Part shown: positions 2,895-9,561 of the stretch, piece by piece | How positions within the stretch are numbered: the first letter of the stretch is position 1 | How the letters are laid out: the number at the start of each line of letters is the position of its first letter | Assembly (NCBI RefSeq): GCF_024494645.1 | Contig: NZ_JANHDJ010000005.1 | Span: 124,001-188,000 of the forward strand | Reading direction: 5' to 3' | DNA length: 64,000 nucleotides | Source of the DNA: Halohasta litorea | GTDB lineage: Archaea > Halobacteriota > Halobacteria > Halobacteriales > Haloferacaceae | Program-made: the position numbers and the translations under genes | The notes under the pieces: model-generated | What the model saw: the letters and a program-made list of their open reading frames with translations, nothing else | Told to the model about the DNA's origin: nothing | The model's database searches: none

Positions 2895-5783
2895 ATGAGT
2901 TCCGCGGACGCGGAGTCGGGCGCAGATGCCTTCTCTCATCTCGGCGAGACGGTGCGGGCCGCCCTGTCGGACCGCGGGTTTTCGACACCCACCGAGCCAC
3001 AGCGGCGGGCGATTCCGCCGCTTGCCTCTGGTCGCAACACGCTGGTGATCGCACCGACTGGGACCGGCAAAACCGAAACGGCGATGCTGCCTGTTTTCGA
3101 TGCGATCGGCCAACACCGCGAACGGGAAGGGTCGACCGACGGCTTTTGTGCTTTATATATCACCCCGCTCCGCGCACTGAACCGGGATATGCGCGAGCGC
3201 CTCGACTGGTGGGGAGAGCGACTCGATATCGAGATCGACGTCAGGCACGGCGATACGACCCAGTACCAGCGACAGAAGCAGGCGAACGATCCGCCCGACG
3301 TGCTGGTGACGACCCCCGAGACGCTCCAAGCGATGTTGAGCGGCTCGAAACTGCGGACCGCGCTGGCGGACGTGCGGCACGTGATCGTCGACGAGGTCCA
3401 CGAACTCGCCGCCTCGAAACGCGGCGCACAACTCACTGTCGGCCTCGAACGCTTGCGGCTGCTTTCCGGAGCCTTTCAGCGGATCGGCTTGTCTGCGACC
3501 GTCGGCGACCCCGAAGCCGTGGCGGCGTTTCTGACTGGCTCCCGCGTCGACGCGCCGGAATCCGAAACCGACGCCGACCGCGATTTCTCTGTCGTCGAGG
3601 TCGACGTCGGCAGTCGCGTCGAATTTTCCGTCATCCACCCGGAGATCACCGCCGAAGACGATCGACTGGCGGGCAAACTCGCAACAACGGAGGAAATCGC
3701 CAGCCACGTTCGGGTCATCCGCGAAATCGTCGACGACAACGAGTCGACCTTGATTTTTGTCAATACTCGCCAAACAGCCGAAGCACTCGGCTCTCGGTTT
3801 AAAAAACTCGGCGAGCCGATCGAGGTCCACCACGGCTCGCTCTCGCGGGACGTGCGCGTGGATGTCGAAGACCGGTTCAAAAAGGGAGAGCTCGACGCAT
3901 TGGTCTGTACCTCCTCGATGGAGCTCGGGATCGACGTGGGGCGGGTCGACCACGTCGTCCAGTACGGCAGTCCCCGGGAGGTCGCCCGCCTGCTCCAGCG
4001 GGTCGGCCGGGCTGGCCACCGCCACGATCAGGTCTCGCGTGGCACGATCATCACGAGCCACCCCGACGACACGCTCGAATCGCTCGCCATCGCCCGGCGC
4101 GCTGGCGAGGGGTTGGTCGAATCCGCCGGCATCCACTACGGGAGTCTCGATGTCGTCGCCAACCAGATCGTCGGGCTGGTGATGGACTTCGGCGAAGTGA
4201 GCGGTCGACGGGCCTACGAAACCGTCACGCGGGCCCGCCCGTTCCACGATCTGAGCGAGGAACTGTTCCGGGCGGTCGTCCGGGAACTCAGCAGTAACCG
4301 GCTCCTGTGGCTTGACGAAGAGGCCGATCGGCTCGAAAAGTCCGGTGGGACGTGGCAGTACTACTACGCCAACCTCTCGATGATCCCCGACGAGGAGAGC
4401 TACGAAGTCCACGACATGTCCTCCCGAACGCAGGTCGGCACGCTCGACGAGCGGTTCGTCGTCAACTTCGCCGCGCCCGGCGAGGTGTTCATCCAGCGCG
4501 GCGAGATGTGGCGGATCAACGACATCGACGAGGAGGAGGCGAAAGTAAACGTCGCGCCGATCGAGGACCCCGCAGGCGAGGTTCCCTCCTGGATCGGCCA
4601 GGAGATACCGGTGCCTGCGGCGGTCGCCAACGAGGTCGGCGAACTCCGCGGGATCGCCGGCTCGCAGTTCGAACACGGGGCCGCACAGCGCGCCGTCGCC
4701 GGTGATCTCTGCGGCCGGTATCCGGCCGACGCTGCGACGCTCGAACCCGCACTCGACCCGATCGACCGCCACGTTGAGGCCGGGTTCCCGCTGCCGACTG
4801 ACCGTCGAATCTGTATCGAATCACGAGGGCGGACGGTCAGGGTCGACGCCGCCTTCGGCCACGAGATCAACGAAACCTTGGGTCGGCTGCTGTCGGCATT
4901 GGTCGGCCAGCAGACCGGCTCATCGGTGGGGATGAGCGTCGACCCCTACCGAATCAGTTTCGAGGTTCCGCAGGGCGTTTCTGCCGGCGTGTTTCGAGAT
5001 ATTCTCCAGTCGACCGACCCCGACCACCTCGAATCCTATCTCGAACTCGCCTTAAAAAGATCCGAGACCCTCAAGTTTACCTTGGCGCAGGTGGCCGCCA
5101 AGTTCGGCTCGCTGAAGCGGTATCAGGGCCGCGGGCGGTTCGGCGGCGACCGTCTGCTTGAGGCCTTGGAGGGAACTCCAGTGTACGACGAGGCGATGCG
5201 AGAGATCTTCCACCGCGATCTGGCACTCGAAGAGACGGCCGACGTGTTGCGGCGGGTCCAGGAGGGCGATCTCGACCTCGTGGTCGTCGGCGACGTGACG
5301 CCGATCGGGACGACCTCCCGGCCGAGCGGCCAGGAGCTCCTCGTCCCCGAAAAGGCCGACGCGAGCGTGATCGAGGCGATCGAAGACCGCATTCACAACG
5401 ACCGCGTGCTGCTGTGTTGTTGCCACTGCAAGGACTGGGACCACACCACCAAGGTCAGGAGGGTCCGCGAGCAGCCCGAGTGCCCGGAGTGTGGGTCGAC
5501 ACGCGTCGCCGCGCTGAACCCGTGGGCCGACGAGGTGGTCTCGGCAGTGCGGGCCGACGAGAAGGACGACGAACAGGAGAAACAGACCCAGCGGGCCTAC
5601 CGGGCGGCGAACCTCGTCCAGAGCCACGGCAAACAGGCCGTGATCGCACTGGCGGCACGCGGTGTCGGTCCCCACAACGCCGCCCGAATTATCAGCAAGT
5701 TCCGCGAAGACGAGATGGAATTCTATCGAGACCTCCTCAAACAAGAACGCGAGTACGCCCGAACACAGTCGTTTTGGGACTAA
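2895..5783 (+). CDS. lhr: Lhr-type ATP-dependent DNA helicase (SF2)
   Basis: A 962-residue superfamily 2 helicase of the Lhr (large helicase-related) group. Motif I is APTGTGKTE at residues 53-61, motif II is DEVH at 166-169 and motif III is SAT at 200-202. The second RecA domain carries VFVNTR- and QRVGRAGHR-like motifs. The Lhr-associated C-terminal domain follows. A cysteine-rich knuckle, with CCCHC at about residue 840 and CPEC at about 863, probably binds zinc. The protein is expected to unwind branched or RNA:DNA substrates in repair. The C-terminal 41 residues are repeated, in diverged form, 1.9 kb downstream at the end of an AT-richer island. The start at 2895 fits a TATA-like box 27 nt upstream. 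Confidence 0.9.
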   Translation: MSSADAESGADAFSHLGETVRAALSDRGFSTPTEPQRRAIPPLASGRNTLVIAPTGTGKTETAMLPVFDAIGQHREREGSTDGFCALYITPLRALNRDMRERLDWWGERLDIEIDVRHGDTTQYQRQKQANDPPDVLVTTPETLQAMLSGSKLRTALADVRHVIVDEVHELAASKRGAQLTVGLERLRLLSGAFQRIGLSATVGDPEAVAAFLTGSRVDAPESETDADRDFSVVEVDVGSRVEFSVIHPEITAEDDRLAGKLATTEEIASHVRVIREIVDDNESTLIFVNTRQTAEALGSRFKKLGEPIEVHHGSLSRDVRVDVEDRFKKGELDALVCTSSMELGIDVGRVDHVVQYGSPREVARLLQRVGRAGHRHDQVSRGTIITSHPDDTLESLAIARRAGEGLVESAGIHYGSLDVVANQIVGLVMDFGEVSGRRAYETVTRARPFHDLSEELFRAVVRELSSNRLLWLDEEADRLEKSGGTWQYYYANLSMIPDEESYEVHDMSSRTQVGTLDERFVVNFAAPGEVFIQRGEMWRINDIDEEEAKVNVAPIEDPAGEVPSWIGQEIPVPAAVANEVGELRGIAGSQFEHGAAQRAVAGDLCGRYPADAATLEPALDPIDRHVEAGFPLPTDRRICIESRGRTVRVDAAFGHEINETLGRLLSALVGQQTGSSVGMSVDPYRISFEVPQGVSAGVFRDILQSTDPDHLESYLELALKRSETLKFTLAQVAAKFGSLKRYQGRGRFGGDRLLEALEGTPVYDEAMREIFHRDLALEETADVLRRVQEGDLDLVVVGDVTPIGTTSRPSGQELLVPEKADASVIEAIEDRIHNDRVLLCCCHCKDWDHTTKVRRVREQPECPECGSTRVAALNPWADEVVSAVRADEKDDEQEKQTQRAYRAANLVQSHGKQAVIALAARGVGPHNAARIISKFREDEMEFYRDLLKQEREYARTQSFWD

Positions 5784-5886
5784 CTCCGGTGGCGGGTTAC
5801 GTAGTCAGTGATTCGGCGATGGCGGTCACAGATGTGTTGTCCCGAAAGGAGAGTCGAGAGCACTTGATCAGCGTTGTGTCTGGTGG

Positions 5887-6291
5887 TTAGCTATTCGAAT
5901 ACAGGTAGAGAGAACAGCCGACGAGGATCGACTCCACAGTCTTTGTTATAACTGCCCAGTGAGCGAGGGAGCCGTCTCTGTAGAACGCTTCAATCCCCCA
6001 TCCGTGTACCATAAACATTGCCAGAATCGAGAGTAACGCATAGAGTGCTGCCACAAGAAACAGTTCCTTCCGCCAGTATTTCGAGAGGTATAGAACCGTC
6101 CCGCCAACGAATCCGGCCCCGTTGAGTGCAAACAACACTCCCCCAGTAGTACCTGCAGTCGCGGTTGCCCCCGGAATGAGGTAGAAATGCAGGATGCCAG
6201 TCGTGAGTGCAGTCAGAATGGCAAGATACCCTGCGGGGTTCTCTGGTTTACTGAATACCGGTACGCCTGTAGCTGTGGTTGTTTCACCCAT
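5887..6291 (-). CDS. Small four-helix membrane protein of unknown function
   Basis: A 134-residue protein with four predicted membrane helices, roughly residues 20-42, 48-68, 76-96 and 110-130. The loops are short and there is no catalytic motif. Short uncharacterised four-helix proteins of this layout are common in haloarchaea, but I cannot assign a function. The gene lies in an AT-richer island at the 3' side of the helicase. Its promoter has a TATA-like box centred 27 nt before the ATG, with a 19-bp palindrome immediately upstream. Expression is therefore probably controlled by a DNA-binding protein. The neighbouring FilR1-type regulator on the same strand is the obvious candidate (inference). 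Confidence 0.75.
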   Translation of the reverse strand: MGETTTATGVPVFSKPENPAGYLAILTALTTGILHFYLIPGATATAGTTGGVLFALNGAGFVGGTVLYLSKYWRKELFLVAALYALLSILAMFMVHGWGIEAFYRDGSLAHWAVITKTVESILVGCSLYLYSNS

Positions 6292-6313
6292 GTCTTAGAG
6301 AATTTGGTTTCGA

Positions 6314-6322
6314 ATAATAAAA
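6314..6322 (-). promoter_or_regulatory. TATA-like box of the 134-aa membrane protein gene
   Basis: Read on the minus strand the box is TTTTATTAT. It is centred about 27 nt upstream of the ATG at 6291, which fits a leaderless transcript. Confidence 0.45.
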
Positions 6323-6336
6323 CCCATAGAATCTTG

Positions 6337-6355
6337 GGGTAAAAATTTTTTACCC
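6337..6355. promoter_or_regulatory. 19-bp perfect palindrome, candidate operator
   Basis: GGGTAAAAATTTTTTACCC has two perfectly complementary 9-base arms around one central base. It sits just upstream of the TATA-like box of the 134-aa membrane protein gene, about 45-63 bp before the expected transcription start. That is a typical position for an archaeal activator site. A partial copy of one arm, GGTAAAAATATTTCC, lies at 6375-6389. The likely ligand is the adjacent winged-helix regulator (inference). Confidence 0.45.
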
Positions 6356-6482
6356 TGTAGAATTGTTACATTGTGGTAAAAATATTTCCATCCATATGTA
6401 ATCTGATGTGTTATCTGTGTTTGGTTCCGGTGCCGTGGTCAACGACACGCCTACGCAATCAATAGAAACCCCACGAAACCCG

Positions 6483-7271
6483 TCACACCCGACTCAGATA
6501 CGAATCCAAGGGTTCCGCATCCTGCCAGAGCGATTCGTAGAGGTCCGAGGCCCAGCGGATAGCCGATTCCGCCTCGGAGATTAGCACCGACTCAACCGGG
6601 GACTGGGTCATCGGTCGGAGTGCCATCATCATATACGAATCAGCAACAGTGAGTCCGAACTGAATATCCGTCACTTTGTACTGGGCTGCATCGATCTCAC
6701 GGATTCGTTCGCGGGTTCCCGCCTCGACGTCCGCCTGTAACTGGTCGACAACACTCGGCGGAAACAGAAGACGAGAATCTGGATCATCTGGGAACGCATC
6801 CCTATACTCCGGAGCGTGGATCGGCACGGCAGTACAGCAGCTATCTGCTTGCTCAAGCAGGTCGACAACTGCGCTGGCATGTGCTCGAACGTTGGGTGGT
6901 TCGGAACGAACGACCTCGTAGTGCCCCAGTTCAGGAAGTCGGCGGCGAAACTCTCGGGGGAGGTGATCGGTTCGGTGGTTCACCCAGTATTCCTGGTCAT
7001 AGGTGATTGTCTGAACGGTGGATTTTCGTCGTTCGATCTGATCTACCACCAGACGACCTTGTCCTGTGAGCCTCCAGCCAGCTTCGCCATCAAAAACCAC
7101 TCCCTGACGCTCCAAATCCGCGAGTGCGGTATACACCGTTGATGTACTCGCATCTAGGTGGTCGATGAGATAATCCGTCTGCTGCACAGTTGCGGCTAGT
7201 AGCTGCAAAATATCAACCCGAACCGACGACGATATGACGAACTCATACACCGAATTCCCTCGCATTTGCAT
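6483..7271 (-). CDS. FilR1/COG4742-type winged-helix transcriptional regulator
   Basis: The N-terminal 80 residues form a winged helix-turn-helix (YEFVISSSVRVDILQLL, then DHLDASTSTVYTALADLERQ). The rest resembles the middle domain of FilR1-type regulators (formerly DUF1724), which is thought to be a ligand-binding or dimerisation module. I chose the ATG at 7271 (262 residues) because the minus-strand ATATTAT at 7294-7300 is centred 26-27 nt upstream, as expected for a leaderless message. The upstream ATG at 7295 would overlap that box and give 270 residues. The gene lies in the AT-richer island and may control the palindrome-bearing promoter of the downstream membrane protein. The ligand is unknown. 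Confidence 0.8.
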   Translation of the reverse strand: MQMRGNSVYEFVISSSVRVDILQLLAATVQQTDYLIDHLDASTSTVYTALADLERQGVVFDGEAGWRLTGQGRLVVDQIERRKSTVQTITYDQEYWVNHRTDHLPREFRRRLPELGHYEVVRSEPPNVRAHASAVVDLLEQADSCCTAVPIHAPEYRDAFPDDPDSRLLFPPSVVDQLQADVEAGTRERIREIDAAQYKVTDIQFGLTVADSYMMMALRPMTQSPVESVLISEAESAIRWASDLYESLWQDAEPLDSYLSRV

Positions 7272-7293
7272 ATATCGTTCAGTTTGCGGTCTC

Positions 7294-7300
7294 ATAATAT
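7294..7300 (-). promoter_or_regulatory. TATA-like box of the FilR1-type regulator
   Basis: ATATTAT on the minus strand lies 26-27 nt upstream of the ATG at 7271 and overlaps the alternative ATG at 7295. It therefore helps to decide the start codon. Confidence 0.35.
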
Positions 7301-7426
7301 CCTTGGATCGTTGGTTCTTTCGTGATCTGAACGGTTGGTGTCGGCTGCCAACCGCAGCACAGATACTGTTGCATACCGCTATTCACTCTGAATTCAATTG
7401 AGATGTAATCGATAGCACCTGCACGG

Positions 7427-7465
7427 CCCGTTTTCGACGGTGCTACCCCGTTTTCGACAGGGCTA
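7427..7465. repeat. Short tandem direct repeat, 20-bp spacing
   Basis: The 19-base sequences at 7427-7445 and 7447-7465 are near-identical. Both begin CCCGTTTTCGAC and end GCTA, and they differ at two positions. They lie in the non-coding part of the island, just before the helicase 3'-end remnant. No function is evident. Confidence 0.5.
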
Positions 7466-7522
7466 CTCAGCATCGTCGCGAGCAGTTGCGACTCGATCGA
7501 TGTCCAAATTCGCTCCGCACCA

Positions 7523-7669
7523 GCCGCAATCATCGCTTTTGCTCGCGGCGTCGGGCCCGATACCGCCACTCGGATCATCAACACCTTCCGCGACGAGGAG
7601 ACGGAGTTCTATCGGGACCTTCTCAAACAGGAACGGGAGTACGCCCGGACCCAGTCGTTTTGGGACTGA
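7523..7669 (+). pseudogene. Remnant: second copy of the Lhr helicase 3' end
   Basis: Read in the frame that ends with TGA at 7667-7669, this stretch encodes about 48 codons with no plausible start. Over the last 41 residues it matches the helicase C-terminus at 33 positions, including an identical run from EFYRDLLKQE to the end, TQSFWD. At DNA level the copies differ at many third positions, so this is not a recent exact duplication. No helicase sequence precedes it. The stop directly abuts the convergent exchanger gene. It most likely marks the original helicase 3' end, displaced when the island DNA was inserted or exchanged (inference). Confidence 0.8.
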
Positions 7670-8617
7670 TTACCGCAGCAAGAACTCACCGATCCACCGA
7701 ATCAGTTCCGTGAGCATCATCAGCCCGCCTTCGAGCCGAGAGAGCGATCGCCCGGTCCAGAGCAACAGCAGGACGCCACTGCTGAGCGCGAGCAGCCAGA
7801 GGGTGTCGTCGATCGCTGCCGGTGTGACATCCAAGGGGCGCAACAGGGCGGCGATCCCGAGTGCGCCCAGAATATTCAGGGCGTTGCTTCCGAGGACGTT
7901 GCCGAGTGAGACGCCGATCCGGCCGCGCCTGATGGCGATCAGCGAGACGGCCAACTCGGGTGTCGACGTTCCGGCCGCGACGACCGTCGCACCGATCGCC
8001 CACGACGGAACCCCGAAGAACAGCGCGAGATCCGATGCAGCTGTCACGAGCAAATGCCCGCCAGCGATAACGAGCACTAGCCCGCCGATGATGTGTGCGA
8101 TCTCACGCCACAACGGCGGGGACTCCGCCGCCGTCAGTTCCGACGGGACGTTCGTGGCATCACTGGACCGAGCGAGTACCAGCAGGTAGGCAAGCAGTCC
8201 TGCAAAAAGAACTCCTCCCTCGATCCGCGTGATCGTCAGGTCCGAAATGAATACCAGGGCGACGACAGTCGTCACGAACAAAACGGCCCCATCGCGCCGT
8301 ACGATGGCTCGGTCGACGGGAATCCGTTGAAAAAGCGCCACGACGCCGAGGACGACCGCGAGGTTGTAGATGTTCGACCCGACGATGTTGCCGACTGCGA
8401 TATCGCCGAGGCCAGCGAGTGCGGCATCGCTCGTCACGACGAATTCGGGCATTGACGTTCCGGCGGCGACGATCGTGAGGCCGATCACGAGTTCCGAAAG
8501 CCCGAGCCGACGGGCGATCTGTACGGCACCCTCGACGAGAGACCGCGAACCGTACCACAGCGACACCACGGCGAGTAGAACGGCGACGATATCGAGACTC
8601 ACCGCGAGTGCAGTCAT
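7670..8617 (-). CDS. Sodium/calcium exchanger family protein (CaCA)
   Basis: A 315-residue membrane protein with the inverted-repeat layout of the cation/calcium exchanger superfamily, YrbG-like. The first alpha-repeat has GTSMPE at residues 53-58 and GNIVGSN at 76-82. The second has GTSTPE at 216-221 and GNVLGSN at 239-245. These acidic and Asn/Ser residues form the ion path. About ten membrane helices are evident. The protein probably exports calcium in exchange for sodium or protons. Ion specificity cannot be told from sequence. Its stop codon abuts the helicase 3'-end remnant on the opposite strand. Confidence 0.9.
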   Translation of the reverse strand: MTALAVSLDIVAVLLAVVSLWYGSRSLVEGAVQIARRLGLSELVIGLTIVAAGTSMPEFVVTSDAALAGLGDIAVGNIVGSNIYNLAVVLGVVALFQRIPVDRAIVRRDGAVLFVTTVVALVFISDLTITRIEGGVLFAGLLAYLLVLARSSDATNVPSELTAAESPPLWREIAHIIGGLVLVIAGGHLLVTAASDLALFFGVPSWAIGATVVAAGTSTPELAVSLIAIRRGRIGVSLGNVLGSNALNILGALGIAALLRPLDVTPAAIDDTLWLLALSSGVLLLLWTGRSLSRLEGGLMMLTELIRWIGEFLLR

Positions 8618-8658: not shown

Positions 8659-9561
8659 CTACTCGGGACCGCTCGGTGTTCCGGTGAGTGCTGGTAGTAC
8701 CACGAAGCCAATAAAGGGAACCGTGAACCCGACGAGATAGCCCGCCAGATGTCCCCAGACGTTAGTGCCGGATCGGACGAACAGCAGCGCGCCAGCGACG
8801 CCGAAGACGAACACCGTCGAACCGATCAGGAAGGCGAGCCGCACGTCCGGTTCGAGCTGCCGGTTGTATTGGCCGAGTCGCCGGGGGCGGTCATATCGCC
8901 ACAACAGGCCACCGATCGAGAGTCCACAGACAGCCAGGCCAGCCGCGAACAGCGGCCGCGTGGGGAAATACCACACCGAAGGGACCGCAAAGACGACCGC
9001 AAGCGAACACAGGAACGGAACCGCCGCCCACACGGTGTCGACTTCGCCGTTGGTCACCTCGCTGGCCGCCGCCGCCAGCGCGATCGGCAGGAACCCCAGA
9101 AAGGCCGCGACGATCCCTGAAAAACCGACCGACGGCTGGTCGGTGACGACGCCCAGCGTCTGGAGCGTTAGCCACGCAATAACGAAGGGACCGACCAGGA
9201 GGTAGACCGCCGCCGAGAGCCTGAACTCGCGATGCCAATCGGCGATCGATACCAGGGGGTAGATGCCGAACAGGGTGACCCAGAAGTTGAGCACGTTATC
9301 GAAGAGGTGGCGACTGCTGGCGTGCATGTAGTTGGCCGTGAAGGCCGTCGACAGCGTGCGGGGGCTCTCGAACAGCGAATCGGCCCCGAGACTGAATCCG
9401 AATCCAATCGACGGCGACAGCAGCCACACCGATACAAGTACTCCTGGAAGCAGCCCCAACACCAGCCACTGCTCGACGGGCCCAGCGGCTGTCGTCCGTC
9501 GCCACCAGTCGACGACGGTTGCGGGCAGCGACCCGAGTTCGCGGAGCCACCGAGATGCCAC
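8659..9561 (-). CDS. Rhomboid-like intramembrane serine protease
   Basis: A 300-residue multi-helix membrane protein with the rhomboid catalytic signature. HASSRHLFDN places His80, His85 and Asn89 at the end of an early helix. GFSG at 146-149 carries the presumed nucleophile Ser148. NVWGHLAG carries the presumed catalytic His271. All key residues are present, so it is probably active in cleaving membrane helices. The substrate is unknown. The gene stands 41 bp from the exchanger gene on the same strand and may be cotranscribed with it. Confidence 0.82.
   Translation of the reverse strand: MASRWLRELGSLPATVVDWWRRTTAAGPVEQWLVLGLLPGVLVSVWLLSPSIGFGFSLGADSLFESPRTLSTAFTANYMHASSRHLFDNVLNFWVTLFGIYPLVSIADWHREFRLSAAVYLLVGPFVIAWLTLQTLGVVTDQPSVGFSGIVAAFLGFLPIALAAAASEVTNGEVDTVWAAVPFLCSLAVVFAVPSVWYFPTRPLFAAGLAVCGLSIGGLLWRYDRPRRLGQYNRQLEPDVRLAFLIGSTVFVFGVAGALLFVRSGTNVWGHLAGYLVGFTVPFIGFVVLPALTGTPSGPE

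Follow-up and report, generated by a model that had tools for sequence, protein, structure and literature searches.

A spare lhr 3' end behind the helicase gene of Halohasta litorea and its partial affinity to Halonotius

Genes and features of the lhr locus

The window considered here, a stretch of 64,000 nucleotides from the genome of Halohasta litorea (G000), contains the gene lhr (2895-5783, forward strand), which encodes a large helicase-related protein with DEAD/H, WH_Lhr and DEAD_assoc domains by Pfam. The gene is intact and has a native, Halohasta-type 3' end (copy 1), whose tail is of the PHNA/RDLLKQ type and matches that of the congeners in which the site behind lhr is empty. The gene is followed by a spacer (5784-5886, assigned to no strand), in which homology to the DNA behind lhr in the genus Halonotius starts right after the lhr stop codon; the spacer is 76% identical to its counterpart in Halonotius G025 and 81% to that in Halohasta G003, and is unlike the post-lhr DNA of two further Halohasta genomes, G001 and G002. 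There follow, both on the reverse strand, the two genes of what is here called the cassette: one for a DUF7475 membrane protein (5887-6291; PF24287, E=1.3e-38) and one for a transcription regulator (6483-7295) with an HVO_A0261_N winged helix and a FilR1_middle domain (PF08350 and PF25213, both above cut-off). The closest relatives of the DUF7475 protein are found in G003 and in Halonotius, where their genes also adjoin lhr, and orthologues of the regulator adjoin lhr in G003 and in three Halonotius genomes. A search of PHROG gave no match for either cassette gene. In the promoter region of the DUF7475 gene, beside the regulator gene, lies a near-perfect palindrome, GGGTAAAAATTTTTTACCC (6337-6355), which is a possible candidate operator; in G003 and Halonotius its place is taken by related, non-identical AT-rich repeats.

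The cassette is closed by a second lhr 3' end (copy 2; 7544-7669, forward strand), made up of the last 41 codons of the gene (7544-7666) and a stop codon (7667-7669) which directly abuts, at 7670, the stop of a gene for a Na/Ca exchanger (7670-8617, reverse strand; PF01699). Beyond this lies a gene for a rhomboid-like membrane protein (8659-9561, reverse strand), which in G001 and G002 is convergent with lhr. As described in the first-pass annotation of this DNA, copy 2 ends at 7669, is in frame, and is identical in 33 of its 41 residues to the C-terminal end of the helicase. At the DNA level the two copies agree at 101 of 123 nt (82%), without a long identical core, and the longest identical run is indeed the one of 16 nt reported earlier, CAGTCGTTTTGGGACT, which extends into the stop codon. 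Weaker in-frame similarity to lhr continues to the left of copy 2 as far as about 7502. When the whole genome was searched with the lhr end, copy 2 was the only second match, with E=8.6e-30 for DNA and 1.3e-18 for protein, and it is therefore not a chance resemblance. The AT-richer island with a regulator and a membrane protein, recognised at the same time, has a G+C content of 52% against about 60-69% in the flanking DNA, except that its AT-rich stretch already stops near 7540. No integrase was found in the island, again in agreement with that description, nor was any other mobility gene found between lhr and the rhomboid-like gene, where the only genes are those for DUF7475, the regulator and the exchanger.

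Filled and empty sites in Halohasta and Halonotius

In a DNA tree of rpoB', whose deeper forks are weakly supported, G000 and G003 come together, joined then by G001 and then by G002, with Halonotius as the neighbouring genus. The site is empty in two of the four Halohasta genomes, G001 and G002, in which lhr is directly convergent with the rhomboid-like gene, so that the island is not common to all relatives. In G003 the site is filled: the order is lhr, DUF7475, regulator, lhr end and rhomboid, the spare end abutting the rhomboid-like gene, and the DNA behind it is colinear with that behind the only lhr end of G001 (79%). The empty sites support the earlier proposal that DNA bringing an lhr 3' end of its own was added behind lhr, and since the rpoB' tree groups G000 with G003, a single gain in their ancestor would explain the pattern in Halohasta.

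The first-pass annotation took the exchanger gene for the original neighbour of lhr, a role which on the evidence of G001 and G002 passes to the rhomboid-like gene. An order in which rhomboid and/or DUF7522 and an AAA ATPase come after lhr is widespread across the class, a rhomboid-like gene stands beside lhr also in Natronocalculus, G011 and G018, and this gene is the ancestral convergent neighbour of lhr. Relatives in which lhr converges on the exchanger gene, which had been suggested as the form of an uninserted site, were not found among the named relatives; the uninserted site does exist, and is convergent with rhomboid. The exchanger lies between an lhr end and rhomboid in the window's genome only. 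No relative of it was detected in G001 or G003 at E<=1e-60, none was seen within 10 kb of lhr in the named relatives, and its best relative among 292 genomes has 57% identity and comes from another family. As the exchanger is missing from G001 and G003 and the congeners have lhr next to rhomboid, the latter is the old neighbour and the exchanger a separate arrival; its absence from the sampled close relatives likewise puts the historically relevant boundary to the right of the exchanger-side edge of the island.

In Halonotius G025, H. roseus and G408, lhr is followed by DUF7475, the regulator and then trkH, while the cassette is absent from Halonotius pteroides and genome A07HN63. A decayed lhr 3' end is present just before trkH in G025, ending exactly at the stop codon, with a local score of 39 that was reached by none of 2000 shuffles. 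Just a few bases around the lhr stop are left in G408 and H. roseus, and the score of the G408 trace is not above that of shuffled sequence. In G408 (L179) a rhomboid-DUF7522 pair lies about 15 kb from lhr, past trkH and with its order inverted, suggesting an inversion that had one of its breakpoints immediately after the spare lhr end.

Affinity of the spare end and divergence of the cassette

All five Halonotius lhr ends read GPDTAARIINNF (PDTA), whereas the other haloarchaeal lhr ends sampled have N instead of T (PxNA, mostly PHNA). The spare end reads GPDTATRIINTF (PDTA) in the window and APETAVRIITNV (PETA) in G003. In a DNA tree of lhr ends, built on the last 41 codons and with an informative stretch of just 123 nt, the spare end of G003 is nested among the Halonotius sequences (support 100/99). 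Forcing it together with Halohasta lhr was rejected (AU p=0.005), and a position outside both genera was not firmly rejected (AU p=0.076). It is the G003 copy that shows this affinity, the window copy alone being undecided in the tree. At the eight sites with fixed differences between Halohasta and Halonotius, the G003 spare end has the Halonotius base six times, the Halohasta base never, and neither base twice; in the window copy, three of the first four sites carry the Halonotius base and the last four all carry the Halohasta base. Judged by its sequence, copy 2 of the window is a chimera, Halonotius-like to about 7581 and Halohasta-like from about 7601, and the single clean event envisaged at first cannot account for a switch between these points.

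The end of the full-length gene is of Halohasta type in both G000 and G003, and the lhr ends of G001 and G002 have no Halonotius-type base at the fixed sites. Together with the grouping in the tree, the bases of the G003 copy support the assignment of its extra lhr end to a lineage other than the host's, one that appears Halonotius-like, much as the first reading of the window had supposed for the incoming end. That reading also held that the old end had been displaced, and here the evidence points the other way, the full gene keeping a Halohasta-type end while foreign-type sequence is found in the downstream copy. A recent replacement of the 3' part of lhr from Halonotius was considered and rejected, as identity in 150-nt steps shows no clear Halonotius-like stretch in the lhr gene of the window.

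Divergence at four-fold sites is much lower for the cassette genes than for lhr in all pairs compared: 0.20 vs 0.63 between G000 and G003, 0.36-0.47 vs 0.80-0.98 between the genera, and 0.32 vs 0.69 within Halonotius. Such values fit a later exchange of the cassette, as a supporting point only, since the low cassette divergence is seen within Halonotius too and may partly reflect the AT-richer composition of the genes. The amino acid identities of the cassette track those of lhr, at 89-90% in the Halohasta pair and 72-84% between genera; for the regulator they are 87% within Halonotius and 72-79% between genera. The cassette proteins look reciprocally grouped by genus, so that any donor would be a stem or unsampled relative of Halonotius.

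Origin of the cassette

The cassette and a spare lhr end occur in both genera, the site is empty in two congeners, and the spare end has Halonotius affinity. The explanation that we prefer, with somewhat better than even confidence, is that a cassette bearing a spare, Halonotius-type lhr 3' end reached Halohasta through recombination at the end of lhr. In the Halonotius lineage, DUF7475 and the regulator would already have been flanked by lhr on one side and a spare lhr 3' end on the other, and would have been transferred from there to the ancestor of the two Halohasta species, the lhr 3' end common to donor and recipient providing the homology. The resident lhr would have retained its own 3' end, which would explain why the insertion was tolerated, with the cassette and the donor's spare end added behind it and before rhomboid. 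The donor DNA could have been either a circle of the cassette plus one lhr end or a linear piece carrying an lhr end on each side. Later, and in the window lineage only, the right part of the spare end would have been swapped for Halohasta-type sequence and the exchanger gene added beside it; the chimera would need a later exchange or conversion in copy 2, which may have coincided with the arrival of the exchanger. Which way the transfer went, how many crossovers it took and in what order the later steps followed are as we infer them. Among the points that tell against transfer, the spare end evolves fast and its informative stretch is 123 nt only, and a single simple crossover does not account for the chimera in the window.

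The main competitor, to which we give roughly one chance in four, is vertical descent: the common ancestor of Halohasta and Halonotius would have had lhr, cassette, spare lhr end and rhomboid in this order, and G001 and G002 would have lost the island cleanly, perhaps through the two lhr ends recombining with each other and so restoring a scarless empty site. Clean repeat-mediated deletions are known in Haloquadratum (PMC3119063), both genera have the same cassette in the same place with amino acid identities that track those of lhr, the rhomboid-DUF7522 pair inverted past trkH in G408 looks as if the ancestral rhomboid had adjoined the spare end, and the AU test leaves a spare end outside both genera short of firm rejection (p=0.076). 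On the rpoB tree, however, two independent losses are required. Moreover, PDTA or PETA is common to the spare ends and Halonotius while Halohasta and the outgroups have PxNA, so that vertical descent requires a reversion in Halohasta lhr. The lhr ends of G001 and G002 contain no Halonotius-type base, although repeat excision could leave one. A tandem duplication of the lhr 3' end within Halohasta, with two genes inserted later, would agree with the Halohasta-type right part of the window copy and with the occurrence of plain tandem copies elsewhere, as directly behind the gene in G269, but is highly improbable given that the cassette has the same order in Halonotius and that the G003 copy groups with that genus. 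In its simple form, the old tandem duplication in one lineage raised in the first-pass annotation, the test with the G003 copy rejects it (AU p=0.005), and the copy in the window is chimeric.

Two further routes concern the mechanism of insertion. An intact gene trailed by a partial copy of its end is what a site-specific integrative element classically leaves behind, here one with the lhr 3' end as its attachment site, which would have carried a replacement 3' end and since lost its integrase; in G042, from another family, each of three tandem cassettes even ends in an lhr 3' end. Against this, neither an integrase nor any other mobility gene is present in the island, DUF7475 relatives elsewhere occur singly, with no relative of the regulator adjoining them, and no lhr tail copy was found behind lhr in 80 named relatives, so that no active element family was met at the lhr site; we regard such a remnant as improbable. 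In homology-facilitated illegitimate recombination, which is known in transformable bacteria and has been invoked for the Vibrio cholerae T6SS arrays and Rhs loci (PMC5361080), donor DNA pairs at lhr and joins illegitimately within the resident lhr end, and the downstream copy is the recipient's displaced end, as the first reading of the window had it. The right part of the window copy, being of Halohasta type, would suit this, but the process should leave the full gene with an end of donor type and the downstream copy native, which is the reverse of what G003 and the left part of the window copy show. The right junction also lies within lhr homology, both junctions being in or at the end of lhr-homologous DNA. 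As the source of the island in Halohasta this route is the one to which we give least weight, though it may have been the first origin of the spare end in Halonotius.

Besides transfer from the Halonotius lineage as a single history, a broader proposal is that the lhr 3' end is a recurrent homology landing pad for small haloarchaeal cassettes, which with their spare lhr end could be excised, transferred and put back at any lhr gene by ordinary recombination, with tandem pile-up possible, as suggested by the three-unit array in G042. We think this doubtful. The three cassettes behind lhr in G042 (L033, G042:C8, 8277-14226), of which the last lhr end is the most divergent, each consist of two or three genes without a Pfam match, and in the second unit a deletion has joined a cassette gene in frame to the lhr end. 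In G269 (L048, G269:C1) the last 22 lhr codons recur as a protein-identical tandem copy 61 nt past the stop, after which a similar spacer is repeated. A 14-kb contig of G161 (G161:C2, L049) repeats, with disrupted reading frames, the stretch RPA-lhr-AAA found on the main contig; its lhr match is probably an assembly duplicate and was left out of the cases. No other clear case of an lhr tail copy behind lhr was seen in the 80 named relatives, and independent lhr end copies came from G042 and G269 alone. The sample was as large as that of a control with the EF-2 end, in which a second copy occurred in none of 391 genomes. Two independent cases at lhr are not separated from none at EF-2, numbers too small for lhr to count as a general hotspot. 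In a local test of 747 gene ends, tail-only copies were found only at lhr, in four genomes that had been picked for this feature, and in 80 unselected loci there were none.

Displaced gene ends left by homology-facilitated illegitimate recombination have been described in the effector-immunity arrays of the Vibrio cholerae type VI secretion system (T6SS) and in Rhs loci (Kirchberger et al. 2017, PMC5361080). As at those loci, where repeated events build arrays, the cassette joins the 3' end of a conserved gene by homology and pieces of gene ends of a different origin remain behind it. There, however, the recipient's old end moves downstream, whereas at lhr it is the donor-like end that lies downstream and the resident end has kept its place; the cargo here is a regulator and a membrane protein rather than a toxin-immunity pair, and the host is an archaeon. 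As the affinities of the two ends are opposite, the two cases are alike in how such loci grow, but not in the precise mechanism. Exchange of genes between haloarchaeal genera, outlined for instance for the Deep Lake community (PMC6011602) and in a review (PMC4500145), likewise carries DNA across genus borders by recombination; the present case differs from exchange as outlined there in being old and in being marked by a partial copy of a core gene. With islands that restore the 3' end of their target, such as those of Haloquadratum, in which prophage-type sites hold partial tRNA copies and where partial gene copies without an integrase and repeat-mediated deletions are also described (PMC3119063), the locus shares an intact gene and a partial 3' copy flanking foreign DNA. 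Unlike tRNA-type islands, it has a protein gene as its target, no integrase, and ends that are 82% identical.

Most likely, then, the locus holds a horizontally acquired cassette at the end of a core gene, which is a well-documented but ordinary kind of event. Its value is as a well-bounded archaeal case in which the recombination partner is legible, from empty and filled sites, a likely donor genus, and partly decayed ends that can still be aligned. It shows how a cassette without a mobility gene can settle at the end of a core gene and leave that gene unharmed; and if the lhr end is reused repeatedly, this would amount to an integrase-free route to the building of gene arrays.
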